A DNA stretch of 34,303 nt from Nitrospirales bacterium (GTDB lineage Bacteria > Nitrospirota > Nitrospiria > Nitrospirales > UBA8639), in contig WHTE01000018.1 of assembly GCA_009377845.1 (NCBI GenBank), forward strand, positions 1-34,303, written 5' to 3'. Positions 295 to 22,741 of the stretch are shown here, one piece after another. Under the pieces are notes generated by a model, which was not told where the DNA came from, searched no databases, and saw nothing but the letters and a program-made list of their open reading frames with translations. The position numbers and the translations under genes were made by a program. The first letter of the stretch is position 1, and every line of letters begins with the position of its first letter.

Positions 295-513
295 ATGGCC
301 ATTCAAAAACTCAGTAGCAAAAATCAAATTGTGCTTCCCAAAGAAGCGCGACAAGCCATGGGGGTAAAGGGAGGCGATGAGTTGCTCGTGGTCGTAAAAA
401 ATGACCTGACCATCGTGATGCCAAAACCCAAGCGCTATACCCGGGCTTTGCGTGGCCTGACAAAAGGAACCTACCCGTCCGGCTATCTTAAACGAGAACG
501 CAAGTCGTGGTAG
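295..513 (+). CDS. AbrB/MazE-type antitoxin
   Basis: MAIQKLSSKNQIVLPKEARQAMGVKGGDELLVVV is a typical SpoVT/AbrB fold sequence; good upstream AAGGAGG; overlaps the PIN gene by 7 nt. Confidence 0.85.
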   Translation: MAIQKLSSKNQIVLPKEARQAMGVKGGDELLVVVKNDLTIVMPKPKRYTRALRGLTKGTYPSGYLKRERKSW

Positions 514-962
514 ACAAGGTGCCCTTGAAAGGTCTGCCGCCCGATCGTGCGCGGATTGGAATTGATACCAACGTCTTCATCTATTTCCTCAAAGATCATT
601 CACGCTACGCCCCATGGTGCGCCTCATTATTTGATCTCATCGAACACGGTCGCAATCCGGCTGTCACGTCCACCATCACACTCTTGGAGCTGTTGGTGCA
701 ACCGTACCGTGAGCGAAAAGAAGAGCTGGCCCAGAAAATATTCGCCCTCACCGGCACATACCCCAAACTCGATTGGGTTCCTGTGACGATGGATATAGCC
801 GACCGGGCTGCCGAACTACGCGCGCGTTACCGCCTCAGCACGCCGGATTCCATCCAATTGGCCACGGCCATCAACCACAAGGCCAAATACTTTTACGGGA
901 ATGATCGGTCTCTTCGACGAGTGAACGAGATTCAATGCCTCATTCTGGATGATGTAACCTGA
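507..962 (+). CDS. PIN-domain toxin (VapC-like ribonuclease)
   Basis: GTG start; GIDTNVFIYFLKDH, ITLLELLVQPYR, LSTPDSIQLATAINHKAKYFYGNDRSLRRV: PIN acidic motifs in the expected order; paired with the AbrB antitoxin. Confidence 0.88.
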   Translation: MVDKVPLKGLPPDRARIGIDTNVFIYFLKDHSRYAPWCASLFDLIEHGRNPAVTSTITLLELLVQPYRERKEELAQKIFALTGTYPKLDWVPVTMDIADRAAELRARYRLSTPDSIQLATAINHKAKYFYGNDRSLRRVNEIQCLILDDVT

Positions 963-974
963 CTCGACTCGGGT

Positions 975-1112
975 AGGCTGCCAGCTCCTTGTTCCCGGCC
1001 GCATAATTAGGGAACCCGCCCGTATGGGGAAAAAGGAAAGCGGACAAACCCTCAGCCTGCTGCTGGTCCCAAACCACTTTGCGAAACTCAGCTTTGGGCG
1101 CATGGTTTTTAA
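975..1112 (-). pseudogene. Decayed second N-terminal copy of a 5-formyltetrahydrofolate cyclo-ligase-like gene
   Basis: Reverse-strand peptide NHAPKAEFRKVVWDQQQAEGLSAFLFPHTGGFPNYAAGNKELAAYPSRV aligns by eye with the window-edge copy (KDAARKEVWDRLQAERVARFPFPPHGRIPNFAGAEQAA). Confidence 0.55.
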
Positions 1113-1393
1113 AGGCACAATCGGCCTCCCAACGCCGGCATGTGCCGATACTGGATTCCTGCATCTGCGAGACTCTTGGCCAGAGCTTCTGAATGAAATT
1201 GAGGATTGCGGCGAGAATACGGAGTCATACGGACGTCGGCCAGGACTTGTATGCCGTGCGTCTGGAGGGGCCCGATGAATTCCTCAATGGGCCGCGTCGA
1301 ATGATCGATGGTCCATAGCTCCGAGAGTGTTGGAGTCTCAGGCGATTGAGGGTGGAGAAGCGTGTTATGTCCATTGGAAAAGTTGTTCGGCAT
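1109..1393 (-). pseudogene. DUF488 family protein, truncated
   Basis: LWTIDHSTRPIEEFIGPLQTHGIQVLADVRMTPYSRRNPQFHSEALAKSLADAGIQYRHMPALGGR is a canonical DUF488 N-terminus; it ends abruptly after LGGR. Confidence 0.75.
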
Positions 1394-1425
1394 CTTTCAG
1401 AATATCCATTGGCACGTCGTAGTAG
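1379..1425 (-). repeat. Short repeated coding remnant (YYDVPMDILKDAEQLFQW)
   Basis: AGTTGTTCGGCATCTTTCAGAATATCCATTGGCAC is near-identical to 5913-5960; the reverse strand encodes related peptides. Confidence 0.55.
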
Positions 1426-1832
1426 GTTTATTGAGGTTCTGCTCGTCAGATTTTGGGCGAACAGATCAAGCATATAATTATCTTATCCCTTATTTGACGC
1501 ACTCGGCGAGTGAGAAAGTGACGGGAATTTATCCGATATGGGAGATTCATGTCGTGCAGGACTTGAAACGTTTGCGGCAATCAATGCCACCTCTCACTGA
1601 TTCTCTTACGATTGCAGCGCGTAATTCCCAGGTTTGTCGAAGTTTCCTTTGAAAGCAACAGTGCGTGGAAGGTTCGGACCCGTAGCAGTTGCTTCTGGAC
1701 CGCCGAGGAAATCCGGCGTTGCTTGAACTTAGCCATCCCTCTCACAAAAGCGATGAAATGCATCCAAGAGATAGAGATCTAGGAGAAATAGCCAGCTAAC
1801 TGCTAGCTCTTAGAGTGAATTGCAGTGTACTG

Positions 1833-1951
1833 AATTGCGCCGAATTGCGTTTAAACCCTGTCTGAAACCCCTTGAAAACTGTGCCATTTCTGACGGTAAT
1901 TGCGCCGAATTACGCCGCATTGACACTTCTTGCTAACTTTTTGGCGCAATT
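1833..1951. repeat. Cluster of AATTGCGCCGAATT-type short repeats
   Basis: AATTGCGCCGAATTGCG at 1833-1849, AATTGCGCCGAATTACG at 1898-1914, and the inverted form GGCGCAATT at 1943-1951. Confidence 0.5.
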
Positions 1952-2651
1952 GTAACCGGGCCGGTTCCTGGGAACCACCGGGAAGATTTGGTTTTCCCAG
2001 TGACGGAAACTAATCCCGCAGATTTGAGTTCTCGCAACAATTTCTGCACCTGATCACGGGTCAGTTGGGGAAGCACCTGCAACAGATCCTGCAGTCTGCT
2101 CCCTTCCTGTCTAAAGTGTTCAATGTGCTGAAGCAAAAGTGCTTTATTCGTCTCACGGTCCAGTCCTCGCTTGTGCGTATAGACACCCTTCTTGCCAAGA
2201 AACGCATAAAAACGCCTTGAGAGAATCGGTTTGGCTCCACGTCCACGTCCCGTCAGTTCGACGATACCACGGTCTTTGAGTAACCCCAGACGGTCTTTGA
2301 GATCCTGCGGAACCGGCTCTTCCCGTTGTACAGAGTCCAATACCAGGAAGTCCTGTGTTGTGAATGGACCCAAACCTTCCTGGGTCACATGCTGGAGGAA
2401 CGTCAAAAAGCGTGGATTTGCACTTCGCCTTTCAGAGTGAGGCTCACCTGGAAGTCGTCCGTTCCTGTGAAATCCGGGCGAGGCTTGCTTTCCTTAATGG
2501 ACTCTTCAAACATCCGATCTGCCCCTTGGCCAGACCGTTCGACGAGTCCACACCGTGCAAACGCTTCGGCCATCCTCCGATTACGCGGAGACTGACGCAA
2601 CAGAATATTCTCCGGCGTGATACCAGGAGGGGAACCCTCCGGGACTGACAC
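1933..2651 (-). pseudogene. C-terminal fragment of a RecG-like/AlbA_2-type ATP-binding regulator, frameshifted
   Basis: PENILLRQSPRNRRMAEAFARCGLVERSGQGADRMFEE...GEVQ (frame 1) continues as NPRFLTFLQHVTQEGLGPFTTQDFLVLDSVQR (frame 2, -1 shift); no N-terminal half present. Confidence 0.7.
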
Positions 2652-2834
2652 TTACCCAGCTAGCGTCTAAAAAGATGCTGACACCATTATTCATTCAGAA
2701 AGGTGATGGTATCGCCATTGGCAATGTGAATGACTTTGGCTTGAAAAGATGAGGTATCGACACTACTTAGAAAAGAAAACCCCAAAAGACAGGAAAAAGA
2801 AAAGGGACGTTCTTCGTATTTTTGAGTGAAGCTC

Positions 2835-4814
2835 TTAATCAGACCTGGGAAGTAGGTGTGGTATACCTAGAGGTAACCATGGGGGTGATTTTTTCTCTTT
2901 ACATGGTTCAGGCCGGGTAAGACCTTCGGGAAGTTTAGTGTATTTATCTACGCAGGCTTGGTTGATTTGAGGTTGGGTAAGGTGTTTGGCGAGATTTAAA
3001 TTCGCCGCTCGGAGTTTGGCCCCATACAGATTCGCCCCCTGCAGGTTGGCCGTCTGCAGGTCCGCCTCCTGCAGGTTGGCCTCGTACAGGAACGCCCCCT
3101 GCAGGTTGGCCATCTGCAGGTTAGTCTCCTGCAGGTTGGCATGGAACAGGAAGGCCCCCTGCAGATTGGCCAACGAAAGGTCCGCCCCCGACAAGTTTGT
3201 CCCGCTCAGTCTCGCCCCCGACAAGTTTGTCTCCCTCAGTTTCGCCCGCTGCAAGTTGGCCATTTGCAGGCGGGCCTTCTGCAGATTGGCCCTTGACAGG
3301 TCCGCGTTGACAATGAACGCACCTACCATGTTTGCATTTTGGAGGTTTGCATTTTGGAGCTTGGCACCCTTTACGAGTGGAATTTCATCCGGTAGTTTTT
3401 CTTCCTGTCCCGTCCAGGTTGGTGGTTTGGTAGAAATATCTGCCTCCTCAAGATTGGCGTACGTCCGGTATCCGAAATAGTCGAACAATCGTGGGAGGAG
3501 TATTAGACCATCGTGCCACTCGTATGGAATCATTTCGGGAGGGGAGGTGGATAAATCCTCCCAAGAATTAATGGGCTGGTATAGGCGGACTCCTTCTATT
3601 GTCCAAATAGAGAGCGTCAAAAATGATATAAGGCACAGTCCCAGGATTCCGAGCGTTAAAGAAGAATGCTGATAGGCTTGGAGACTTTTCATTTTCTCTT
3701 TCCACGACAAAGAAGAAGTCCTTTCACCACGCAAAGTCTTTGCTGCCAATCGATAGAGTAAAAGGGCTGCCGTGATACTGACCGCCAATACCCCTACATG
3801 GAGGGAGGTTCCCACCCAATCATGCCGAGGTACATACCGTAACCAAAAGAGCAGAAAGGTGAAGGGGACTAACCACCAGGCAAGCAGGATGGAAATACCT
3901 GTTTGGATTCGAGATAGGGCCGGACGGTGTTCTTTCAGGATCTGAACATGAGAGCGCACCATGCCACTGATAAGCCAGGGATAGACTTTTTCGTCCAAGG
4001 CTTCCCCATTGGGAAAAACTGCCGGTAATTGTGAAAGGCGTTCCCATAACCGTTGTAGGTACAAATGAAACCAAATGTAAAGACTTAGCAGGATGAGTGG
4101 AGCTGCCGCATAGAATCCGACAATGGGGATGTTGGTTTGAATGATAGGAAGTGAGGACGACCGTGAATTGGTGATGAGTTCCACATCCGTGGTTGTGGAA
4201 ATGGTCAACCAACAATATACACAGCTCAGGAGAAGAGAGAGAAAGAGTTTTTTGGAACATTGGGAAATTTTCTCAATCTGGGTGAGTCCCTCGAATTTGG
4301 CGATGTCGGCAGGCAATTTCGCGCCGGAGACATTGGCCCCAGCTAATTGGCTGGATTGGAGACCTTTTACATCAGTGAGGTTGGCATCTTGCAGATAAGC
4401 TTCTCGTAGAATGGTGGCATTGAGGTCTGCTTGTAAGAAAGCAGTCTCTTCAAGATGGGCCCCCTGAAGGTTCACTTTAAAAAGACTTGCATTTTTAAAT
4501 TTTGACTTTTGAAGATGGGCTCCTTGAAGGTTGGAATAATTAAAACAAACTTCTTCAAAGTCGGTCTCTTGGATATAGGCCCCCTGGAGATTGGCTGCCA
4601 TAACCTTAGCCTTAAAGAAGTCCGCACCGTTTAAAATGGCTCCCCGCAGATTTGTTTCTATAAAATTTGCCTGCTGGAATTTTGCATTCATAAGAACCGC
4701 CTCTGAGAGGTTGGCCCCCGATAGGTCTACCTTAGCCACTCCATGTTGCTCCCTCCACTTATTCCAAGCCTCAACGCCCTGCTCAAGAATTTTTAAATGT
4801 TCTGGGTTGGCCAT
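2835..4814 (-). CDS. Pentapeptide-repeat membrane protein (two repeat blocks flanking several TM segments)
   Basis: A(N/D)LXX repeats at both ends with a hydrophobic middle. Preferred start MANPEHLKILEQGVEAWNKWR at 4814, a common N-terminus in this family, rather than 4946. Confidence 0.9.
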   Translation of the reverse strand: MANPEHLKILEQGVEAWNKWREQHGVAKVDLSGANLSEAVLMNAKFQQANFIETNLRGAILNGADFFKAKVMAANLQGAYIQETDFEEVCFNYSNLQGAHLQKSKFKNASLFKVNLQGAHLEETAFLQADLNATILREAYLQDANLTDVKGLQSSQLAGANVSGAKLPADIAKFEGLTQIEKISQCSKKLFLSLLLSCVYCWLTISTTTDVELITNSRSSSLPIIQTNIPIVGFYAAAPLILLSLYIWFHLYLQRLWERLSQLPAVFPNGEALDEKVYPWLISGMVRSHVQILKEHRPALSRIQTGISILLAWWLVPFTFLLFWLRYVPRHDWVGTSLHVGVLAVSITAALLLYRLAAKTLRGERTSSLSWKEKMKSLQAYQHSSLTLGILGLCLISFLTLSIWTIEGVRLYQPINSWEDLSTSPPEMIPYEWHDGLILLPRLFDYFGYRTYANLEEADISTKPPTWTGQEEKLPDEIPLVKGAKLQNANLQNANMVGAFIVNADLSRANLQKARLQMANLQRAKLRETNLSGARLSGTNLSGADLSLANLQGAFLFHANLQETNLQMANLQGAFLYEANLQEADLQTANLQGANLYGAKLRAANLNLAKHLTQPQINQACVDKYTKLPEGLTRPEPCKEKKSPPWLPLGIPHLLPRSD

Positions 4815-5059
4815 AAGGTTGTCTTCAGAAAACGGTCTTTGGTTGGACGAGGTGATGAGAAATTCCACCATACAAAATTTTGAGATTAAAAGAAATGTAG
4901 GAGGGAAGAAATAGGTGTACTGGAACATTTTCTCCAGTACAGGCAAAAGAGGGGAAAGGGGTTGTGAGTCTTTTAATGAAGGAAAATGATTGCTAGAAGC
5001 ATGGCAGGCTTGTGAGCAAGCATTGCGGAATTCCTCTACACGGGAATAATCTCCCTCTC

Positions 5060-5371
5060 ATGGCGCAAGCTCCATTAATCGAACAAGAACTTACAGCGGC
5101 AGAGGCAGCGATGAAAATCGGCAATGACGGCAAGGCGCGTGTTTGTGCGCGACGGGCGGTGGCTCTTGTGGATGAAACCTGGCTGGCGAAACGATCTGAC
5201 CGACCCTTTCGTGGGGATTCCCTGGCGCATCTTCGCCGGATTCAGGAGGATCTGTCTCTCCCCCTTTCCATCCGACAGACGGCTGAACGCTTGAGTACGA
5301 CCGTCACCAGGAAAGACTCAGCCCCATTCACCATCGACCCCCTTGGCGACGCCAAAATCATGATTGAATGA
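5060..5371 (+). CDS. Small conserved protein, copy A of a duplicated family (possibly HEPN-like; unproven)
   Basis: MAQAPLIEQELTAAEAAMKIGNDGKARVCARRAVALVDETWLAKRSDRPFRGDSLAHLRRIQEDLSLP..., near-duplicate of 12466-12792. Confidence 0.75.
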   Translation: MAQAPLIEQELTAAEAAMKIGNDGKARVCARRAVALVDETWLAKRSDRPFRGDSLAHLRRIQEDLSLPLSIRQTAERLSTTVTRKDSAPFTIDPLGDAKIMIE

Positions 5372-5585
5372 CCCTCCGTAATAGCATATGACGCAATTTG
5401 AATTTGCCCTTACGCAAAGAGTTAGACATCATGTCTCCGCTCTCTTCATTCCAGTTTTCACAATGATCGACAGAACCCTGTACCCCGGTAAGACCGTATT
5501 TTGAAGAAACGAATGCTGCGTTGATCGATACCAGAGAGAATGCCATCATATGGAAATCATTTTCCACAAAAGATTGGAGGGTGTT

Positions 5586-5816
5586 GTGGCACAGATCCTT
5601 GTTCGGCAAATCGATGAGAAAGTCGTGGACCGGCTCAAGAAGCGAGCCAGAGAGCATGGTCGTTCGCTTGAATCTGAAGTCAGGACCATTCTTGAAGAAG
5701 CCGTGCCCGACTATGAGGGGACGTGGAAACGGATTGAGCAATTTCAGAAGCGATTAAGGAAGTCTGGCCGGAAATTCAGCGACAGCGCTGCGTTGATCCG
5801 TGCAGATCATCCATAG
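5586..5816 (+). CDS. FitA-like ribbon-helix-helix antitoxin, no adjacent toxin
   Basis: (V/M)AQILVRQIDEKVVDRLKKRAREHGRSLESEVRTILEEAV is a FitA/VapB RHH signature; GTG at 5586 is the likely start. No PIN ORF follows. Confidence 0.75.
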   Translation: MAQILVRQIDEKVVDRLKKRAREHGRSLESEVRTILEEAVPDYEGTWKRIEQFQKRLRKSGRKFSDSAALIRADHP

Positions 5817-5845
5817 CCCACAGTCTTCATGATCCAGAAGAATCT

Positions 5846-5893
5846 GATGGAACAGGAACTTTCGATGGCCGAAGAAGCGTTGAAGATCGGCAG
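5846..5893 (+). pseudogene. 5' fragment (copy B) of the duplicated small gene
   Basis: MEQELSMAEEALKIG matches IEQELAAAKEALKIG of copy C (12466), then diverges into a different repeated sequence. Confidence 0.55.
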
Positions 5894-5912
5894 GCTTGTT
5901 GGGCTTACTGGG

Positions 5913-5960
5913 GAAATTGTTCGGCATCTTCCAAAATATCCACGGGCACTTCATAGTTAT
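5913..5960 (-). repeat. Second copy of the short repeated remnant (HNYEVPVDILEDAEQFPQ)
   Basis: AATTGTTCGGCATCTTCCAAAATATCCACGGGCAC versus 1379-1425. Confidence 0.55.
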
Positions 5961-6140
5961 GATTCTGAGTCTGTTAATTATGATACCTCAGGTCAATGAT
6001 TTGACACAGAAGGGGATGAATCCTAGATTGTTTACGTTTTCCTGTTTTCTTGATAATTGATTATCTTATAAACCGTCCGTTTTCTGTTGAGATGTTCATG
6101 CTAAGAATGTCCCATTTTAAAGAGTCGCGGAAATAGCAGT

Positions 6141-9104
6141 ATGCTGGACATAGTCGGATTTCTTAAACCGGTTTTCTCTATGGGCCGCAGAGCCTGGAAT
6201 TACCTCTCTCGTTTATTTAGGGAACGTCAAGCTGGGCGTAGGATCTCTCCGACTGATGAAAGCCCTTTAATAGACGAAGAATTCGACAAAACGCTTGCTC
6301 GGCTGAGAGGAGAAGAAGGCGAGGACGCATTTCTAAGTCAAATTAAAACTTTCATTGAGCATTCACTTGTTACTCCACCGTTTCTTCGAGAAGAGGAAAT
6401 AAGATATTGGCTCGCTGCAGAGCAGGTTCGTTGCGACTTGAAGGCATTGGCATCTCTTCGCCTAAGAGGCGTTATTGAAGATGACAACGAGGTAAAACAG
6501 CGCCTTATCCAAGCCTATGGCTCAAGCGTCTCGACCAAGCACAAGGCACTGGCAATCGAGGCAATTGAGGTCATAGTTGCAATCCTTGTTACTGGCTACA
6601 AGACAAGCCTCCAGGGGCCAACATTTCCATTAGCAGGTTTGATTCAGGCCAGTTTTACCGAAAACAGAGAAGAATTAGAAAGAGTTAGCCAAGAAATATC
6701 TGGCGTTGGGGAAAAGCTCGATAGATTCGGGCCAGACAACTTTGTAGTGATGGCGCATACAGACCAAGCCACAAAAGAATTGGATCGAATTCTCAAAAGG
6801 CGTGGATTTCGGGTTGATCGCGTGCATGATGAAGTTCGCCTTCTAGCTCGACAAATCATGGAGGGAGATTTCCGTTACGCGGATCAAAAGACCAAAACGA
6901 AAATCCTATACTGGGCGGCAAGGCTTCACACTTCTGATATCCAGCACATCTTATCTGCAAAAAACTACCTTGCGAAGCTTCACACGCTTGATTCCAACCA
7001 TGACACTCGAATTGTCGACGCATACATCATGGAGAGGGAAGGAAATATTGAAGGGGCGCTTCAACTTTTAAGGGATATCAATGACCCTGATGGCCATTCT
7101 GCTCTTTTGACAGTTCTAATTCGAACTCGCGGAAAAGAGGCTGCTCTGTCGTGGTTTGAGGAACAGCCAGAACACGAGGATGCTAAATTTCTGACTGGCC
7201 TAGGTTGGGTAAATTTGGCAGTTTCATTGGCTGAGATGAATAAATGGGAAAAGGCAATAGACTACCTCGAAGGTGCTCAGGAACATTTAGAAGAATGGCC
7301 GGACTTAGCATTTGTCGAAGGGGTCTTTAACGCGGCCATGTTACTTCCAGCTGAGATGCGACACTTGGCTCTACGAATGCAGATCTTTCATTCACAGATA
7401 CAGACCGTCAAAGGACCTAATATAGACCGGCGACGGATTCGTGCATATGAATGCTTCGATCAGGCGGCGAAACTGATGGCAGCAATTGGTGAGGGTAAAC
7501 GGGCGGAGTTAGCGATAGCCTGGCTTTTGTGGCTTAGACTCACGAATGAAACAGAAGAAATCGCTGGGGCAGCTCGGGAAGAAGTACGAGAGGTCATGAA
7601 AGATCCTGCACAAGCAGTTAATTTACTGCCTGTCGCTCTCGCATTCGGCGTGGATTTTGATAAGGACCCATTCCAACGATACCTTGCACAGCGCAGACAG
7701 ATGGGTGGTTTGGACGGTCAGGAGTCTTTCGCCGAATTTCTTTTGGTCGAGACCACCATGTCTCCTCACGAGTATGCAGAGTTTCTAGAGCGAGAAGAGA
7801 GTCGGCTCGTTAAGAATATTTCCCTTGCATTGATTGCAGGGAAACGAATAGAGGCGCTCCTAGGGGACGGGCAGGTTGCACGAGCAAGGCATGTGTTGGA
7901 AGCGCACAAGAGTGACTTTGTTGGGTATGACTACGATCGCCTCCGTGTAATGATTCTCAAAAGAGAAGGTGGAGATGCCCGAATCTCACTTGAAGAGATT
8001 TATTCAAGGACTGGAGAGTTACTAGATTTACAAAATCTGGTACGAGAAATTGAACAGGCAGGGGATTGGACGGCATTAACTCCGCTGGCGGAAAAGCTAT
8101 TCCAACTCGAACGAACAAAACACAATGCGGGTCGGCTAGTCGAGTGCATGCGGCATGATCCTCAGTTTGGATATTGTTCTATTCTGGAATTCTTCGCGGA
8201 AAATCCAGATGTGGAGGATTGGGGTAATGATTTCAGATCGGCCCAGGCATGGGCACATTTTTATTTGGGCCAATTAAAAGAGTCTCGTGCAATCAATGAC
8301 CAGCTTCTCAAAGCCCGCAACAATCCGGCAGATCTTCAGCTCGATATGAACTTAGCTATTCAGTCTGGAGACTGGGAGCGATTTCCAGCGATCGTCGATC
8401 GGGAATGGAGCAAGCGAGATAAATACAATGCGGATCTACTACTTCGCCTTGCATCGTTAGCTGCTGAAGCTGATGCAACCGCTTGCCGAACAATTGAGCT
8501 AGCCAAACTTGCGGCAAGCAAGGCCCCAAATGATCCAAGTGTGCTTATGAATGCCTATTCACTCACCGTTCAATTGGGGCGAGACCAGGATGCAGATCCA
8601 TCATGGATGTCCCGAGCAGCAGAATTGTCTTCTGACAGTGGTCCGGTCCATCGGATGGACATGCGGACTCTTGTTCAGGAGATGATGCCCGCCCATCGTG
8701 AGCGCGAGCGGTTAATCGAGCGAAATTTACTCCGAGGGGAGGTGCCCTTGCATATGGCAGCTGCCATGCTCCATATCCCACTGTCACGGATACTTATCGA
8801 CCTCCCTCGGCGGAATGCAGACCAGAGTGACGGTCGCCGCCGTGTGATAATTCCAATAGCTTCAGGAGCGCGACAGATCATCGGACTTCAACGGTCCTGG
8901 GTTATGGGTTTAGATATCACCTCCATAATGGTCCTTGGATTCCTGGACCTCCTCAGAAACGTCCTGAAGGCTTTTGATCGTATTGTTCTGACACCTGAGA
9001 CCATGATTGTTCTTCTCGACGAACGTCGCCGAGTGCGCTTTCACCAACCTTCGCGCATCAACAACGCCGAAGAGATTCGTGAGCTCATTGACAAAGACAG
9101 CTAA
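6141..9104 (+). CDS. Large TPR-type helical-repeat protein ending in the first half of a PIN-like domain
   Basis: 987-aa ORF with many TPR-like helices (e.g. EKAIDYLEGAQEHLEEWPDLAFVEGVFNAA). C-terminus IGLQRSWVMGLDITSIMVLGFLDLLRNVLKAFDRIVLTPETMIVLLDERRRVRFHQPSR resembles the start of the PIN domain in 'TPR-GreAB-C-PIN type' proteins. Confidence 0.75.
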   Translation: MLDIVGFLKPVFSMGRRAWNYLSRLFRERQAGRRISPTDESPLIDEEFDKTLARLRGEEGEDAFLSQIKTFIEHSLVTPPFLREEEIRYWLAAEQVRCDLKALASLRLRGVIEDDNEVKQRLIQAYGSSVSTKHKALAIEAIEVIVAILVTGYKTSLQGPTFPLAGLIQASFTENREELERVSQEISGVGEKLDRFGPDNFVVMAHTDQATKELDRILKRRGFRVDRVHDEVRLLARQIMEGDFRYADQKTKTKILYWAARLHTSDIQHILSAKNYLAKLHTLDSNHDTRIVDAYIMEREGNIEGALQLLRDINDPDGHSALLTVLIRTRGKEAALSWFEEQPEHEDAKFLTGLGWVNLAVSLAEMNKWEKAIDYLEGAQEHLEEWPDLAFVEGVFNAAMLLPAEMRHLALRMQIFHSQIQTVKGPNIDRRRIRAYECFDQAAKLMAAIGEGKRAELAIAWLLWLRLTNETEEIAGAAREEVREVMKDPAQAVNLLPVALAFGVDFDKDPFQRYLAQRRQMGGLDGQESFAEFLLVETTMSPHEYAEFLEREESRLVKNISLALIAGKRIEALLGDGQVARARHVLEAHKSDFVGYDYDRLRVMILKREGGDARISLEEIYSRTGELLDLQNLVREIEQAGDWTALTPLAEKLFQLERTKHNAGRLVECMRHDPQFGYCSILEFFAENPDVEDWGNDFRSAQAWAHFYLGQLKESRAINDQLLKARNNPADLQLDMNLAIQSGDWERFPAIVDREWSKRDKYNADLLLRLASLAAEADATACRTIELAKLAASKAPNDPSVLMNAYSLTVQLGRDQDADPSWMSRAAELSSDSGPVHRMDMRTLVQEMMPAHRERERLIERNLLRGEVPLHMAAAMLHIPLSRILIDLPRRNADQSDGRRRVIIPIASGARQIIGLQRSWVMGLDITSIMVLGFLDLLRNVLKAFDRIVLTPETMIVLLDERRRVRFHQPSRINNAEEIRELIDKDS

Positions 9105-9109
9105 GGCCT

Positions 9110-10441
9110 GTGACTTCATCTACAGAACCACCGCCGTGGCTTGCCGAGGAGGTTGGCCGGGACCTTGCTGAGATACTTGAAGATGCCCGTATCAACAATG
9201 GCCGTGTCGTTCGTCCTCGTCCTATATTCCAATTGCGCACATTTCTTGAGAAAGAAGCTGACCTGAAGGAATATGACAAACTAATCTTGTCGACCACAGA
9301 CTTAGGGCGCCTTTTTGTTGAGTCAGGGAAGCTTAGTCGTGAGATATATGAGCAGGCTAGGAAGTATCTGGTTATGCACGACAAAGGCCAGGAAGTGAGC
9401 ACACTGACAGCTGCCTCCATTTTCAACGCCCCCCTATATCTCGATGACCTCGCTGTCATATATCTTCAGCAAGCTGGACTCCTGCAGTCGGTGTGTCGTT
9501 GCAGTGTAGATCTTTGGATCCACCCATCCATGAGGGAAGAGCAGTCCACTCTTGTGGTCACGAACAGAGAGGGTGAACGTCTTAACGAACAAATAGACGA
9601 CATTCGGTCCGCACTACGCGAGGCATTAGATATTGGTAAAGCTGGTTTTCTGCCCCGACATGAGCTCGAAAATGAGATGGTTGGATCTTTGGCAGGATTT
9701 CTTGCGGACACTGGAACGTGCGATATTATCTCCATCGATGACCGCTGCCTGAATCGCCATGGTCTCCTTACGGACAAAAATGGACGCAATGTGCCGATCA
9801 CATGCACTCTGGATCTAATTAGCTATCTGGAAGCTCACGGATTAATAGACACCGCGAAGAAACAGGCGACCTTGCATCGGCTCCGGGAAGGGGGTTTCGC
9901 TTTGGTATCGGTAGACCCTGATGCGCTTCAGCGATTGTTGCGCGCAGCATTATTTGATCAGGACAATAAACTAATCGAGAGTGCTGAGCTAAGGGCTCTT
10001 CGCCAGACCCTTATGCGTATTCGCAGCCTTGATATGATCCAGTGCCCCCTGGAATCACCGTATCTGGCTAGGCTCCGTATTGCCTGTATCCTTACAATTC
10101 GGCGTTTATGGGAGAACAATGATTCGCCCATACAGCATACAGTTGCTCTTACGGACTGGGTTTGGAATAACGTAGCACCTTCGCCGCTTGACTGGGAACG
10201 ACCTGCTTCTTCTAGAGAAGACAGTTTCCCAGTTCGTGAAGCCTATGTTAGGCACCTAGCTCTTCTGCTCAGTCCCATGTCGGGTGTAACAAAGCAACGG
10301 TATGAAACGTACTTGAACTGGATTGAGCGAGGTGTGTTAGAGCCATTGCTACCAGCCAACAATGACTTAATTGATGATTTGGTCAAGCAAATAAAGATCG
10401 AAATCAACCAGCTGGTCGAGAAGTTGAGCAATGAAAATTAG
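9110..10441 (+). CDS. Second half of the PIN-like domain plus C-terminal helical region
   Basis: GTG start after AAGG. PPPWLAEEVGRDLAEILEDARINNGRVVRPRPIFQL and DIISIDDRCLNRHGLLTDKNGRNVPITCTLDLISYLEAHGLID (PIN motif III-like). Its frame is open from 9092, overlapping the ORF1 end. Confidence 0.72.
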   Translation: MTSSTEPPPWLAEEVGRDLAEILEDARINNGRVVRPRPIFQLRTFLEKEADLKEYDKLILSTTDLGRLFVESGKLSREIYEQARKYLVMHDKGQEVSTLTAASIFNAPLYLDDLAVIYLQQAGLLQSVCRCSVDLWIHPSMREEQSTLVVTNREGERLNEQIDDIRSALREALDIGKAGFLPRHELENEMVGSLAGFLADTGTCDIISIDDRCLNRHGLLTDKNGRNVPITCTLDLISYLEAHGLIDTAKKQATLHRLREGGFALVSVDPDALQRLLRAALFDQDNKLIESAELRALRQTLMRIRSLDMIQCPLESPYLARLRIACILTIRRLWENNDSPIQHTVALTDWVWNNVAPSPLDWERPASSREDSFPVREAYVRHLALLLSPMSGVTKQRYETYLNWIERGVLEPLLPANNDLIDDLVKQIKIEINQLVEKLSNEN

Positions 10442-12347
10442 CAGAGCCTTAATCGCTAGACACTTGTGCAACCTTTTGCCCTCACGAGTTAAAAGGCGAG
10501 TTCTAGGGGACCTAACTTTCGTCTCTCAATATGGTCGATTTACTCAAACAATCCTGACGTTTGCTCCTGGAATTTCTATGGATCAAAGTGAGCTCTTTGC
10601 TGCGATCCGTCGTGCACTTGCTTGCCACGGGAATCAAAAAGTTGCAGATATCGAGGGCAATGAATTCTTTGTTATCTTCGAAGATGACATGGTTTTTCTT
10701 AAGAAGATGGTCGAGAAAGGTCCAAGAACATTAGCTCCGCTGGGCCAATTTCTGATTCTTTCACCTGATAAAGATACCCGGATTCGGGCAATTAATAAAC
10801 TTCTGGATTGGCTTGGGCCAACGGCACCGGACTTTTCAGGATTGCTGATGGCAGCCGAGGAACACGATGTCACTGATGCAGAAACTGGAAATATACTAGA
10901 AGAGATTATTAATGGCTTTGAAGCCCACCGAACAAGAATCGTTAAAATGAACAATGGCGGAAAAATCCAGCTCGATGATATCGTGCCAGATTCACTTTCC
11001 TATTTTGAGCGTTTTTGCGGCCCAAATCCTCGGGGTCTTTCGCCAGCGGAGTACCTGACCAAAATACTACCTTCATGTAGGAAACAATTGTTAAGCAGGA
11101 ATCTTGAACGAGGCCTGGAGATCTGCTTACTTGGTGCGTTGCGTGATGATCTTATGCCCGCTGCTTGGACTGACAAAGTAACCGATGAAGAAATGTGGAA
11201 TGCACTAGATTCAATCGAGATGCAGTGCAACCCGTTTGGACTCCTTGGCGTACTTGATATCGCAATAAATCGCCAGCATGACGAGCGATACAGGAACTTA
11301 GCAGATGAGATTATGGGCAAACTCCTACAAGACCAATTGCTTCGTCCAGATGGCGGAGATTGTTATGACCTACTCCCTCTCTTTTCGCAGCTTGTGCTTG
11401 ACCGAATAAACGTACTTGAAGGCGGGGCTTTATGTAGACCATTTTGGAAGCGGATGTGTGCATTGATGCATGCTGGAATACTTATGCAGTCAACCTTGCA
11501 TAGACAAATTAATATGGACGCTTTGCGTGGATGGGTTCTCTCCAATAGAAATATAGCTGGAACATATGCGAAGATGGTTGATCTGCGCCATGAGCCGATG
11601 TACCGAGCAGGGGAAATGTCACGTTCCTCTCTTCGAGAAGAAATTATAGGAAGGCTTGTGATGCTTAGGGATAGACGCCAAGCTACTGGTTTTCCGGTGC
11701 CACGCTCTGAGAAGATTGCCGAGGCCATGACCCGTCTTTCTAGCAAAGGCTCTCCACTAGGCTGGGCAATGCCAGGGCCACTTGATGGACATCGGCGACC
11801 AGCCGAACAGAAAGGACGCAGCCTGTCAGAAACTGACGTCACCAATATTCTCGAAGAGCTTTCCAAGGACCCTTTTGGTCCAATTTGGTCCAAATTAGCC
11901 TACTTCTCTCAATGCTTCGACCTGGGTCCAATAATCCTGCTGCGAGCGTGCGAGGTGAGTTCAGGGTCAGCCTTCGAGATTAAGCAGTTGGAGGGGCAGA
12001 CACAACCAGATCGACTGTTCGATATCTGTCTCGTGGCTGCAGCCCACCGGAATACGGATTTGGCTCGGTCAATCTCTGCCATAGCTCTAGCGAGAGCGCC
12101 GCATGCCCAATCTGGCGTGAAGGCCCTGGCAATCTTTCACATCCTCTTAGTTGCCAGCGCAGCGTTCGAGCGGGATGATGAGTGGTCGCATTGGATTGAG
12201 GAACAACTCGCAGGCCTTGCTAACAGACTGCCGCAGGGTGAAGCTACGAAAACTCTTTTGGAACATATGGACCACATCAAAAGAGTCTTGCCGCTTGAAC
12301 GTTCGATATGCTCACGGGCAGAAGCAATCGTCTCTGCAGCAAATTGA
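10431..12347 (+). CDS. Uncharacterised 638-aa operon partner
   Basis: ATG lies 11 nt inside the end of the preceding gene (coupling). Long uninterrupted ORF; no family recognised. Confidence 0.8.
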   Translation: MKISRALIARHLCNLLPSRVKRRVLGDLTFVSQYGRFTQTILTFAPGISMDQSELFAAIRRALACHGNQKVADIEGNEFFVIFEDDMVFLKKMVEKGPRTLAPLGQFLILSPDKDTRIRAINKLLDWLGPTAPDFSGLLMAAEEHDVTDAETGNILEEIINGFEAHRTRIVKMNNGGKIQLDDIVPDSLSYFERFCGPNPRGLSPAEYLTKILPSCRKQLLSRNLERGLEICLLGALRDDLMPAAWTDKVTDEEMWNALDSIEMQCNPFGLLGVLDIAINRQHDERYRNLADEIMGKLLQDQLLRPDGGDCYDLLPLFSQLVLDRINVLEGGALCRPFWKRMCALMHAGILMQSTLHRQINMDALRGWVLSNRNIAGTYAKMVDLRHEPMYRAGEMSRSSLREEIIGRLVMLRDRRQATGFPVPRSEKIAEAMTRLSSKGSPLGWAMPGPLDGHRRPAEQKGRSLSETDVTNILEELSKDPFGPIWSKLAYFSQCFDLGPIILLRACEVSSGSAFEIKQLEGQTQPDRLFDICLVAAAHRNTDLARSISAIALARAPHAQSGVKALAIFHILLVASAAFERDDEWSHWIEEQLAGLANRLPQGEATKTLLEHMDHIKRVLPLERSICSRAEAIVSAAN

Positions 12348-12465
12348 GAGGAACCAACTTAGGAAATGAATAAGGGGACGGGACACATTGTGGAAGGAAG
12401 CATTTTTGGATTAGACAAACCATTCGAACAAAAATAGTGAAAATACAGCTGTATAATTTCAGCTC

Positions 12466-12792
12466 ATGACTCAACTTGTATTAATCGAACAGGAGCTCGC
12501 TGCAGCCAAAGAAGCGTTGAAGATCGGCAATGAGGGCAAGGCGCGTGTCTGTACGCGGCGGGCGGTGGCGCTTGCCGATGAGGCCTGGCTGGCGAAACAG
12601 TCTGATCAGCCCTTTCGCGGGGATTCCCTGGCGCATCTTCGCCGGATTCAGCAAGATCTGTCCCTCCCGCTTTCCGTTCGCGAGGCGGCTGAACGCTTGA
12701 GTACGACCGTCACCAGAAAAGACTCCGCCCCATTTACCACCGACCCCATTGGCGACGCCAGAATCATCACTACGTATCTGACTGGGCCTTAG
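12466..12792 (+). CDS. Small conserved protein, copy C of the duplicated family
   Basis: Shares exact blocks with 5060-5371, e.g. GGGGATTCCCTGGCGCATCTTCGCCGGATTCAG and CGGCTGAACGCTTGAGTACGACCGTCACCAG. Confidence 0.78.
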   Translation: MTQLVLIEQELAAAKEALKIGNEGKARVCTRRAVALADEAWLAKQSDQPFRGDSLAHLRRIQQDLSLPLSVREAAERLSTTVTRKDSAPFTTDPIGDARIITTYLTGP

Positions 12793-13031
12793 CACCCGCC
12801 TGTTTGCTCCTCCCTGTGTTTGATCAGCCGCCCAGCCTTTAGCTATCGGATTGCCTTATCATGTCGTTTACCTGTTGCGTTGGCTGGTTCAAAGGATGCA
12901 AAAGACATAGCAGACATTTTTGAAATCCTGCTACATTCTGCTTTAGTGGTTTCTAAAAATAAAGCGGAGCCGTTCTTGTTTCAATGAAGGCCTCTGCAGC
13001 AAGAACGGGTGAGAAGAACACGGAATCCGAA

Positions 13032-13064
13032 AATCCCCCTAATCCCCCTTTTTCTAAGGGGGAA
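13032..13064. repeat. Palindromic CCCCCT...AGGGGG dispersed repeat
   Basis: AATCCCCCTAATCCCCCTTTTTCTAAGGGGGAA; a related copy lies at 14556-14592. Confidence 0.65.
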
Positions 13065-13101
13065 TGTAAATATCTTACTTGCCCGCAAATTGAGGTCGAT
13101 C

Positions 13102-18620: not shown

Positions 18621-19958
18621 CTACTTTGTGGCATGTAATTGGTTTTTAAACCTGCAACTGTGCTTCCACAGCCACCACATTTGAATCCCCAATCCGGTGA
18701 GCATCGCAGCCAATCCCACATACAGTCCGGTCACTTGCCCATAGAGAACCCCCACAAACAAGAGGAGAGAACTCCCTGCCAGGTACAGACACACCGCTTG
18801 AGTAATACAAGTGGTCAACCCACGATGAACTAATTCGCCTTGAAAAAAACTTTCCCAAGGACTCAGGGCTGGAAAAATCACAACCAGCCAGAGAGCCGTC
18901 GAGGCCAATGCGGAAAGCTCTGGAGTCAGAGCAGCAACCCATTCAAACCAAATAGTGGAAAGCGGAGTCGCCGCAATCAGCAAGAGAGTTCCACTCGTGC
19001 ATAACGAAACTAGTCCCACAAACTGCCTCAGGGGTGCAAGAAAATGAGGCCGGGCATAAAGCGCGACGACCACCTCCTGCATGGCAAACCCCACACTCCG
19101 AAAAACAAATGACAACCCTCCCAGCACTGGCCACACGGCCAAGGATTCCAAAGCCTGTGGCATCCGGCTTATGGCCGCGCTGACAATGGGCAACGTCGCA
19201 AGGGTGATGAGTGGAGTGAAGGCCAGAGGCCAATAAAAGGCGCCTAATTGTTTGAGAGTGAGAGGCGCCACAGGATGAGGATTGCTCTCTTTCAGATCTT
19301 TGAGGATCGGACGCACGAAAAGGAGGATAAAACCAGCCTCCACAATCACCCCGGACGACATCGCCACCGTCGCCACCACAATCCCCGAAAAACTATTGAC
19401 GACCAGTCCCCCCAGCAGAACGGAGCTACTCACGGTTAACCGGACCAAGGTTCCGAGGCCAATAAGGCGAGTCTGACCTGCCCGGATAACCACTCCTTGA
19501 AGAAACCTTCTCACAGCAATCGATAGGGTCCATGGAGTCATGCATTGCATGCCGATTCTGGCCGGTTCCACAATGACCTCAGGAGCCCCTAGCACATCTT
19601 TCGCGATAATGGCATACAAAGGGGTAAAAGCCACCACGATGTGGAGCAAGGTCAGAGTACTTCCCAAGAACAAAATAAAATTTCGAATAAGCCTGTAGGC
19701 GGACCAATCCTTACACAACGCAGTTGAAGCGACCAGAATCATAATAACGGGAGCTTCAATCAACAGTGAGAGAGGAAAGACCACCCCACCATAGGCCGCT
19801 AAATGTACTTCGGGATCAGCCAAGCGAGACATGGTGGCTGCCACAAGAGGCAACTCCAAGCCCATGAGCAACCAACTTGCTGCCAAGGGCCACCACATGC
19901 GGAAAATCATGAAGAACGGAGAAGAATAAGAGGGTGGCACGCGTGAGTGAGAAGCCAC
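18621..19958 (-). CDS. Polytopic membrane protein, MATE-like
   Basis: About 12 hydrophobic segments in 445 aa; LADPEVHLAAYGGVVFPLSLLIEAPVIMI resembles MATE-type TM1-2 regions. Confidence 0.6.
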   Translation of the reverse strand: MASHSRVPPSYSSPFFMIFRMWWPLAASWLLMGLELPLVAATMSRLADPEVHLAAYGGVVFPLSLLIEAPVIMILVASTALCKDWSAYRLIRNFILFLGSTLTLLHIVVAFTPLYAIIAKDVLGAPEVIVEPARIGMQCMTPWTLSIAVRRFLQGVVIRAGQTRLIGLGTLVRLTVSSSVLLGGLVVNSFSGIVVATVAMSSGVIVEAGFILLFVRPILKDLKESNPHPVAPLTLKQLGAFYWPLAFTPLITLATLPIVSAAISRMPQALESLAVWPVLGGLSFVFRSVGFAMQEVVVALYARPHFLAPLRQFVGLVSLCTSGTLLLIAATPLSTIWFEWVAALTPELSALASTALWLVVIFPALSPWESFFQGELVHRGLTTCITQAVCLYLAGSSLLLFVGVLYGQVTGLYVGLAAMLTGLGIQMWWLWKHSCRFKNQLHATK

Positions 19959-20176: not shown

Positions 20177-22741
20177 TCACTGAGTGGAAGTTGTAGAAGG
20201 GGCAGGATCTGTCGGGATCCCATCGGCGACCAATTCCGTGCCTTCAGACGTAGACATCGTGGCGGACTCAGGAGTGGCAGTGGGGTAGCACTTATGACCA
20301 TTCCCCCTGCCATCCTCTTCCTGAAAATCTTCCTGCTCGACGCATGAAGGCTTCCATGTAGACGCTTCTATTTCACATTCTTCTCCGGGATAAAAACGAA
20401 GGGAATCCCAATGAGTCACCCAACTCTTCACATATTTACGCATACTGGCTCCCGGAACAATTGTGGCCGGACCATCCGTAGCATTCTCCCACATATGCCA
20501 CCCATGCCCTTTGAGGTGAAGCGCACGAATTGCCCGATATGCCTCCTGAATGATGGCCGAAGAGGGATGCCCGATGGGAATACGCTGGGACTGCAATAAA
20601 CCCATGCCCTTCTCAGCTTTGTCGGCTAACAACCGATCGACCTCTGTGTTGTTGGCCCGGAGTTTTTCCAAGAGTTTGACGTTATCTCCTTTTTTCTCCA
20701 GGACCCCTTCTCGAAAATCATTCGTTAACGCGAGCACGGTACCCAACCCCGGTAGGGTAGGGCCGTCATCCAAATTCATTAAGCGTGCCACCTCGGCATA
20801 GGATTTCGCCCGTTGGTTCACAGAATAACGACCAATGAGCTCAGCTTCATCAATCAGCAAAATCCATCCTGCATATCCCGCAGCTTGCATCAGACGAGCG
20901 GCAAACTGAAAGCGTTGAATGGCTAATTCCGCAGCAGACACTTTTCCAAACGTAAAATGCCCTCCAAACCCGGCCTCTTGCAGATACTTTTTTAAATCCC
21001 CGACTCCAATTGGATCCCCGGTCCAAAATCGGGTCATCCGATGACCCAATTCCATATCGGAACTCAATCGTTCATACAGCATCAATGTGGCGGCAAACCG
21101 TGCATCAATCCGACTTTCCGGATTGTTCACCCACGACACTAAATTTTTGTACCGAGGCGTCCAGACATCACATTCTCCGGCTATTTCCGAAAAGATTTCT
21201 CCACGCTTATTAGGAATCACCGCCGTTTCAATTGCGGAATAGTACAGACGGACTGGATGATATAGAGGCGTTTCTTTGCTAATCACAATCCGGCTGCAGA
21301 TAAAATTGGCTTCCAATGCCAGGTTTTGGAGATACTCAAGAATATGCGACTTTCCACTTCCAAACTCGCCTTCTATCACCATGCCACGAGGACACGGACC
21401 GGTTGTAATATTTTGTTGGGTGGCTTCCAGTAACCGTCGAAAACGCCCTTCCACTTCTGGTTGAAGACATCCTAACGCGGTGACCACATGTCGGTTAGGA
21501 ACCCCTGCCCTCAGACCTTCAATGACCCGACGGGCCTCACTATCGGGAACCATACTCTGCGGCTTCGGGCATGGAGGATTGATCCTTCCCTCTGGAGCCG
21601 TATCGGTTACATCTTGAATTCGCACCAAAGACGCTAATGGGTTCTGACGATGTTTAGGACGAATGTCATCCCACACGCGTAATTTCAAGGCTTCATACCG
21701 GTCAACGCCGCGACGGGCATCAGTGAGGAACTCTTGCGGAGCCAAAACCACCATCAACAATCCTTCAGTGTCATCAGCCGAATCAATAAACTGGCGAAGC
21801 AATTCAAATAAATCCATCGTGGCTGACGAAGAAAACGACAAGGTACCATCAGTCGGCAAGGCGTCTTTTTTGGAAAAATAACGGGAGATATCAAGTGAGA
21901 GAATAAGCCCTCCCTGCCCAGTTAACCGCAACCAGCGCGTTAAGGACGACAGCATGTACCGTGCATTATGACGCGACACTTTTTGATAGATGAGGGCTTT
22001 TTTGACTCCAGACACGAGCCGAAGATCTCCACACAACCACTCTTTCACGGCTGTGGCCAAGACCCGGTCGGAATCGCCAGCGTCAAGCTGAGCCATGCAC
22101 AATCGGATCATGGCCATGCGAAATTCGCGACAAAGCCCCGGATCGCCTTCAATGGTTTTTTCTACCCACGTTTGGACATCACGCCGCAGCATGGGCTCCT
22201 TTCGTTCATTCAAGGTCGCAACCTGCCGTAAAGAGAATTCTCTTCGATTTGCGGGAATCCGATGGCCATTCTCTTCAAGAAGCCGCAGAACAAATCGATA
22301 GGCTAACTCATCCCAATCCACTTGTTTCGCGATCTTCTGAAACAGTCGCTCAACCATATGGGCTTTCGTGAATCGCGCGTCGACCTTCGCCAGCACATAG
22401 GCTTCGCGTTTGGCCAGACCGTCCAATTCCTGTTGGCAGGCTTTTAAGGCTTCTTCATGGGGAAACACCGCCACCTTGACAGCTCCGCCTCCCTCCCGTA
22501 CGAAACTCGCAAGATATTCGCTTTGAAGAATGCTCAACCAATCGCTAAGAGGCAGATTAAAGAGTGGAGCCTCCTCCGAGGGAGAATTTTTCTTGGACGA
22601 TGGTTTCGAATCTGATTGATGAGGCAAAAGAAGTTTTGGTGCCGCCAGTTGAGTGACATTGAGCGAAGACGGGAGGGGAGAAAGGCACTCCTCTTCCCTC
22701 ACGGACTGCAACCGATTTAATGCCTCAATTAATTTGCTCAT
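20177..22741 (-). CDS. BREX-type ATP-binding protein (DUF2791/BrxC-BrxD-like), with an additional N-terminal ATPase-like region
   Basis: Walker A GEFGSGKSHILEYL, Walker B GWILLIDEAELIGRYS, ARRVIEGLRAGVPNRHVVTALG; N-terminal KALIYQKVSRHNARYMLSSLTRWLRLTGQGGLILSLDISRY. Confidence 0.78.
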   Translation of the reverse strand: MSKLIEALNRLQSVREEECLSPLPSSLNVTQLAAPKLLLPHQSDSKPSSKKNSPSEEAPLFNLPLSDWLSILQSEYLASFVREGGGAVKVAVFPHEEALKACQQELDGLAKREAYVLAKVDARFTKAHMVERLFQKIAKQVDWDELAYRFVLRLLEENGHRIPANRREFSLRQVATLNERKEPMLRRDVQTWVEKTIEGDPGLCREFRMAMIRLCMAQLDAGDSDRVLATAVKEWLCGDLRLVSGVKKALIYQKVSRHNARYMLSSLTRWLRLTGQGGLILSLDISRYFSKKDALPTDGTLSFSSSATMDLFELLRQFIDSADDTEGLLMVVLAPQEFLTDARRGVDRYEALKLRVWDDIRPKHRQNPLASLVRIQDVTDTAPEGRINPPCPKPQSMVPDSEARRVIEGLRAGVPNRHVVTALGCLQPEVEGRFRRLLEATQQNITTGPCPRGMVIEGEFGSGKSHILEYLQNLALEANFICSRIVISKETPLYHPVRLYYSAIETAVIPNKRGEIFSEIAGECDVWTPRYKNLVSWVNNPESRIDARFAATLMLYERLSSDMELGHRMTRFWTGDPIGVGDLKKYLQEAGFGGHFTFGKVSAAELAIQRFQFAARLMQAAGYAGWILLIDEAELIGRYSVNQRAKSYAEVARLMNLDDGPTLPGLGTVLALTNDFREGVLEKKGDNVKLLEKLRANNTEVDRLLADKAEKGMGLLQSQRIPIGHPSSAIIQEAYRAIRALHLKGHGWHMWENATDGPATIVPGASMRKYVKSWVTHWDSLRFYPGEECEIEASTWKPSCVEQEDFQEEDGRGNGHKCYPTATPESATMSTSEGTELVADGIPTDPAPSTTSTQ

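Follow-up and report, generated by a model that had tools for sequence, protein, structure and literature searches.

The window analysed here is a stretch of 34,303 nucleotides from a Nitrospirales bacterium (assembly GCA_009377845.1, contig WHTE01000018.1). Three open reading frames follow one another on its + strand, ORF1 at 6141-9104 (987 aa), ORF2 at 9110-10441 (443 aa) and ORF3 at 10431-12347 (638 aa). A gap of 5 nt separates ORF1 from ORF2, and ORF2 and ORF3 share 11 nt, in full agreement with a first-pass annotation made from the letters. When positions 5501-13000 are compared by blastn with the copy in a genome of the same genus (G191, locus L008), DNA similarity is confined to 5924-12351 (+) and falls into blocks of 77% and 83% identity that end just past the ORF3 stop codon. 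These bounds delimit a conserved module that is best read as two genes: gene A, made up of ORF1 (its 5' two thirds) and ORF2 (its 3' part), and gene B, which is ORF3. Scans of the window's ORFs with NCBIfam and PADLOC returned no meaningful match, and most of the domain assignments come from Pfam models, structure prediction and comparison with relatives.

All parts of the module lie on the + strand. ORF1, whose counterpart in relatives belongs to a single gene A, opens with a variable alpha-helical module (6141-6740) and continues as a region of helical/TPR repeats, in which one TPR-like repeat is recognised below threshold (7203-7283; PF07719, E 0.005); TPR families score above cutoff in one relative (L010) and near cutoff in another (L021). 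The end of ORF1 holds a helix-turn-helix domain, HTH_upstream_double_PIN (PF24407; residues 846-911, 8676-8873; E 2.4e-18, 66.7 bits), and the first half of a PIN domain, PIN1, with Asp925 in GLDITS and Glu961 in LLDERR (8913-9023). An HQPSR motif comes after these acids (9042-9056). ORF2 contributes the remainder of PIN1, a second PIN domain (PIN2, 9428-9841; PF20698, E 4e-4, below the curated cutoff) and C-terminal helices. Asp112 of PIN2 lies in YLDD at 9443-9445, and its Asp-Asp-Arg, in SIDDR, runs from 9737. The PIN-like nuclease that the first-pass annotation had placed across the ORF1/ORF2 junction is supported by the succession of PF24407 and GLDITS in ORF1 and the sub-cutoff PF20698 match in ORF2.

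This arrangement is strongly conserved. PF24407 is found in all 38 relatives examined and PF20698 in 37 of them, and the helix-turn-helix domain precedes the two PINs in one open frame, a frame that in the window is broken inside PIN1. The PIN1 acids are kept in 36 of 38 (Asp) and 36 of 38 (Glu) relatives, and the HQPS motif is near-invariant, with H and Q in 38/38; in PIN2 the Asp is present in 36/38 and the residues of Asp-Asp-Arg in 37, 38 and 38 of 38, respectively. An AlphaFold2 model of the corresponding region of locus L025 (pLDDT 86, pTM 0.82) shows two alternating strand-helix units at the PIN positions. Profile (HH) comparison of PIN1 and PIN2 with VapC gave no signal, comparison of PIN1 with PIN2 gave a weak one (22% probability over 40 columns), and a sequence-profile search of the PDB with gene A found no match.

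Why does such a conserved frame appear in two pieces? In G191 one open frame of 735 codons spans, without interruption, the end of the TPR region, the HTH, PIN1 and PIN2, and ORF2 is 74% identical to residues 287-729 of it, in one frame. The window is one base shorter than G191 at about 9097, where the 83%-identity alignment shows a single one-base gap, and this frameshift site (9092-9110) both ends ORF1 and creates the apparent start of ORF2. Read against this copy, ORF1 and ORF2 make up one gene, which a one-nucleotide indel has split, and the three-gene operon with separate ORF1 and ORF2 that had first been described gives way to a two-gene module. No break at the same point occurs in the 41 genome loci of relatives. 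As assembled, the window copy is probably inactive, since its gene A product would be truncated and without an intact PIN1. Because the frame is broken, the D-to-A assays that had been suggested for this copy would be uninterpretable, and it is the wrong one to clone.

That judgement depends on the frameshift being real. An error of sequencing or assembly, which would leave an intact two-gene system in the living cell, comes only a little short of an even chance. The genome is a draft in 169 contigs, and the 6.2 kb are otherwise without a break. Between the window and G191, dN/dS is 0.20-0.29 overall, ORF3 included, and similarly low before (0.198) and after (0.255) the break, so the gene has been under purifying selection until recently. 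Against an error stands the condition of other copies. The G191 copy is itself damaged, by an insertion sequence of ~1.24 kb with matching inverted ends in the TPR region (L008, about 10110-11353) and by a TGG-to-TGA premature stop downstream of it, and gene A is broken or truncated in 3 of the 41 loci (L040, L060, L064), at other positions than in the window; together these lesions suggest that real decay is common in the family. Both copies of the module known from the genus carry lesions.

The boundary between ORF2 and ORF3 is of a different kind. No indel separates the window from G191 at the overlap and both use an ATG at the same position, which shows this split to be genuine. ORF3 had initially been left without a family, and no GreA/B C-terminal domain had been seen at the locus; both statements need revision. 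Pfam's Permuted_GreAB-C (PF24388) matches the window's ORF3 weakly (19.1 bits against a cutoff of 27, E 1e-3), exceeds the cutoff in ORF3 homologues (31.7 and 39.6 bits) and is found in 28 of the 37 proteins of the ORF3 family that were scanned. The AlphaFold2 model of the window's ORF3 (pLDDT 84.6, pTM 0.84) consists of a small beta domain of GreAB-C type at residues 41-103 (10551-10739), followed by an all-helical alpha-solenoid at residues 104-638 (10740-12344). In the beta domain, strands 41-45 and 48-51 precede helix 52-65 and strands 68-72, 78-84, 87-94 and 97-103; the order strand, helix, two strands, two strands is the one expected from a circular permutation of GreA-C.

Other comparisons were negative. 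HH comparison of the beta domain with genuine GreA C-terminal domains, whether native, doubled or un-permuted, did no better than controls; Foldseek searches of the PDB and BFVD with whole-chain models, in which helical repeats dominate, gave nothing at E <= 1e-3; and a sequence-profile search of the PDB with gene B found no match. ORF3 alone as a patterned query of genome contigs retrieved no relatives, the patterns from one divergent protein being too specific. Since the Foldseek, GreA-C and VapC tests were negative, the domain names PIN and, above all, GreAB-C are drawn from Pfam's curated models and from topology, and docking on RNA polymerase is weakly supported.

ORF3 can also be placed by its company. 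A member of its family directly follows the PIN part in 41 of 41 genome loci; the first-pass annotation had named conserved ORF1-ORF3 adjacency as a test of its own reading, and the adjacency holds throughout. At 38 loci gene B is a downstream gene, mostly overlapping gene A by 4 or 8 nt (in one of them, L025, gene B is itself in two frames); at two (L026 and L029) A and B are fused in frame; and at the remaining one (L064) the ORF3 family stands behind a frameshifted gene A. Intact two-gene forms occur in Agrobacterium fabrum (1529 + 639 aa) and Methylophaga (1366 + 624 aa). Cyanobacteria, rhizobia and the same order have the whole as one protein of 2039-2213 aa that is colinear over HTH-PIN-PIN-ORF3, and a further single-protein form (L009) is cut by a contig end. 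A tree built on the HTH-PIN-PIN region places the fused L026 and L029 as sister to the split group of the window, G191 and L025 (SH-aLRT 99), which implies fission or fusion at least twice.

Could ORF3 nevertheless be an antidote or regulator in the manner of a toxin-antitoxin pair, as the first-pass annotation proposed in calling it a regulator or immunity partner? It is conserved, overlapping and downstream of an RNase-like gene, and the split form predominates among the loci found. ORF3 is, however, covalently joined to the PIN part in L026, L029, L009, L010 and the cyanobacterial and rhizobial proteins; it is 638 aa long with a solenoid of its own; and the GreA/B-C domain is placed in the constant core of such systems by Kaur et al. 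(PMC8195603). That several lineages have it fused with the PIN gene makes a core part likelier than an antidote, and the antidote reading is improbable. The sequence comparisons indicate instead that ORF3 is a separate gene that supplies the C-terminal half of the machine to which gene A belongs.

At the other end of the machine, the N-terminus of gene A is exchanged between relatives. For example, it is an Mrr nuclease in L010, a caspase in Leptolyngbya, a DUF676/alpha-beta-hydrolase (esterase) in Agrobacterium, an HNH domain in L057 and an alpha/beta-hydrolase in L042. In a Vibrio/Providencia/Klebsiella group, residues 1-110 of gene A (read in L033) contain two apparent transmembrane helices, and this two-helix module is a possible membrane effector. 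The alpha-helical module of the window is shared by five members (the window, L026, L027, L028 and L029), and no match to the window's module was found in Pfam or in a sequence-profile search of the PDB. Different N-terminal effectors on one constant core are the pattern that Kaur et al. describe for TPR-GreAB-C-PIN systems (PMC8195603).

The module is accessory, as had been supposed from its setting: of 21 genomes searched in the genus, 2 have a homologue of ORF2, and of 296 in the phylum, 6 have PF24407. A conserved Zn-metallopeptidase gene lies on the same side of the module in the window and G191, at different spacing. In G311, where no ORF2 match was found, a small (~105-aa) gene, a FitA-like antitoxin region and the peptidase gene lie within about 3 kb, and the site of the module is variable within the genus. 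In the window, the ~105-aa gene, which has no Pfam family, is duplicated on either side of the module (5057-5361 and 12463-12767, both +, 84% identity, same orientation), a pair that is possibly the relic of an insertion. Relatives are found on conjugative plasmids and beside tyrosine-recombinase cassettes. At L033, L039, L045 and L046 (about 600-5870) a four-gene cassette stands directly upstream of gene A and encodes a tyrosine recombinase, a member of the integrase_1 family, a 675-682-aa protein and a 158-aa protein; the families were assigned in L033, where the third and fourth genes had no NCBIfam match. A neighbour scan that carried no matched random control placed Gabija GajA/GajB, type I-III restriction-modification, SoFic and Shedu genes near relatives. 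Phage records and E. coli genomes held no match to the module.

Several other features of the window were recorded. A FitA-like ribbon-helix-helix antitoxin gene (PF22513; 5550-5816, +) has no identified toxin gene beside it. The genome has ten PF01850 matches, among them a VapC-type PIN toxin gene in the window (507-962, +). A pentapeptide-repeat protein of 703 aa (PF00805) is encoded at 2835-4946 (-). Further along, a BrxC/BrxD-like ATPase of 854 aa (PF10923, E 2.2e-30; 20177-22741, -) and a 445-aa ORF with strong AT skew downstream of its gene (18621-19958) possibly form a second defence locus. A short repeat at about 13010-13066, which reads NPPNPPFSKGE-like in one frame, has copies on several contigs of the same genome and in relatives of the genus.

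Taken together, these parts suggest a single complex. The product of gene A (variable N-terminal module, TPR/helical sensor, HTH, PIN1, PIN2) would assemble with that of gene B (GreAB-C-type domain, alpha-solenoid). The solenoids would act as sensors, either of an invader or of a transcription complex that has been disturbed, and the GreAB-C-type domain would dock the complex on RNA polymerase. The PIN pair would cleave transcripts or other RNA, with PIN2 as the likely catalytic domain and PIN1 possibly lending its Asp and Glu, and the N-terminal module may be a suicide effector or an adaptor, killing or recruiting. The docking on RNA polymerase, and with it the detailed mechanism as published, is plausible but rather less likely than not. 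More speculative, and on balance unlikely, is the fuller proposal that the tandem PINs pool their acids into one composite nuclease site (Asp and Glu from PIN1, Asp and Asp-Asp-Arg from PIN2) within a distinct two-gene immune complex that has a permuted Gre-like platform and swappable N-terminal killers, the helical effector of the window's subgroup among them.

Of the effector-plus-partner model in the first-pass annotation, the defence-like role is supported, as a prediction, and the casting of ORF3 as regulator or immunity protein is not. A housekeeping task in RNA processing or transcription quality control, rather than immunity, would suit the GreAB-C and PIN names, which point to transcription and RNA, and the purifying selection on the module; against it stand the patchy occurrence in genus and phylum, the variable effectors, the occurrence of relatives on plasmids and beside recombinase cassettes, the defence-gene neighbours and the variable site within the genus, and it is quite improbable. 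The adjacency of the ORF1 and ORF2 frames in a -1 relation could also suggest a programmed frameshift that joins them in the window's lineage, but this is rejected as very improbable, as no recognisable slippery heptamer was read around 9092-9110 and relatives read through in one frame, with no need of a shift.

The remaining question is how the module, here preferred as a conflict system, relates to those already described. It shares a PIN nuclease with type II toxin-antitoxin systems of the VapBC kind, and such an assignment was rejected: in place of a small antitoxin there is a multi-domain protein of ~1,430 aa with a 638-aa partner, other lineages have the partner and the PIN part in a single protein, and no similarity to VapC profiles was detected. 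In DS-3 and DS-5, recovered by DefensePredictor (PMC13092281), defence against phage likewise requires a PIN nuclease; DS-3 works without an antitoxin, and DS-5 depends on a further protein, which is no antitoxin either (PMC13092281). They differ in build. In DS-3 a single PIN is divided between the two ends of the protein, the partner in DS-5 has DUF5830 and an AcrIF4-like domain, and the descriptions of the two include neither a TPR-HTH-double-PIN arrangement nor GreAB-C (PMC13092281).

The best counterpart is the TPR-GreAB-C-PIN conflict system, a computational prediction by Kaur, Iyer, Burroughs and Aravind (2021, eLife, PMC8195603, Fig. 2K), in which docking on RNA polymerase would be the task of GreA/B-C, cleavage of the extruded transcript that of PIN, and back-up suicide that of the N-terminal effector. 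The first-pass annotation had noted a likeness to such proteins, and Pfam domains of the system are now seen in all three ORFs; its further view, of a candidate undescribed system, no longer stands, as its parts are already covered by Kaur et al. (PMC8195603) and by Pfam in three entries. The entries PF24407 (HTH_upst_double_PIN), PF20698 (PIN-TPR-GreABC) and PF24388 (Permuted_GreAB-C) are the module's own domains, and relatives pass their curated cutoffs, unlike the window's PF20698 and PF24388 matches. No published experimental function was found for these three entries, and no experimental study of the system was found in a literature search of main article texts; the double-PIN variant may already be catalogued in supplementary files. 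In the relatives, the machine is encoded by one gene or by two and its killing domains are exchanged; they span many bacteria, among them Agrobacterium and Rhizobium, which are easily handled in the laboratory, and so make the published prediction testable.

With high confidence, then, the locus is a broken double-PIN system of the TPR-GreAB-C-PIN type. That it is a broken member of the TPR-GreAB-C-PIN conflict system, with the same general mode of an RNase and a variable effector acting in conflict, is likely, if slightly less secure. The module and that system share an N-terminus that varies as effector or adaptor (REase, HNH, peptidase and others), a helical/TPR core, a PIN and, putatively here, a GreA/B-C-type domain, together with fast evolution and sporadic distribution (PMC8195603); among the relatives, the PF20698-type PIN, the TPR/helical core and the variable effector are all present. 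The archetype is one protein in which TPR is followed by GreA/B-C and a C-terminal PIN (PMC8195603), a layout of effector, TPR, GreA/B-C and PIN that was not encountered here. In the present family TPR-HTH-PIN-PIN comes first, and the permuted GreAB-C domain and its solenoid follow, usually in a second, overlapping gene. Because its GreAB-C-type domain comes after the PINs and usually lies in gene B, the module is classed here as a variant TPR-GreAB-C-PIN system and not as the archetype.
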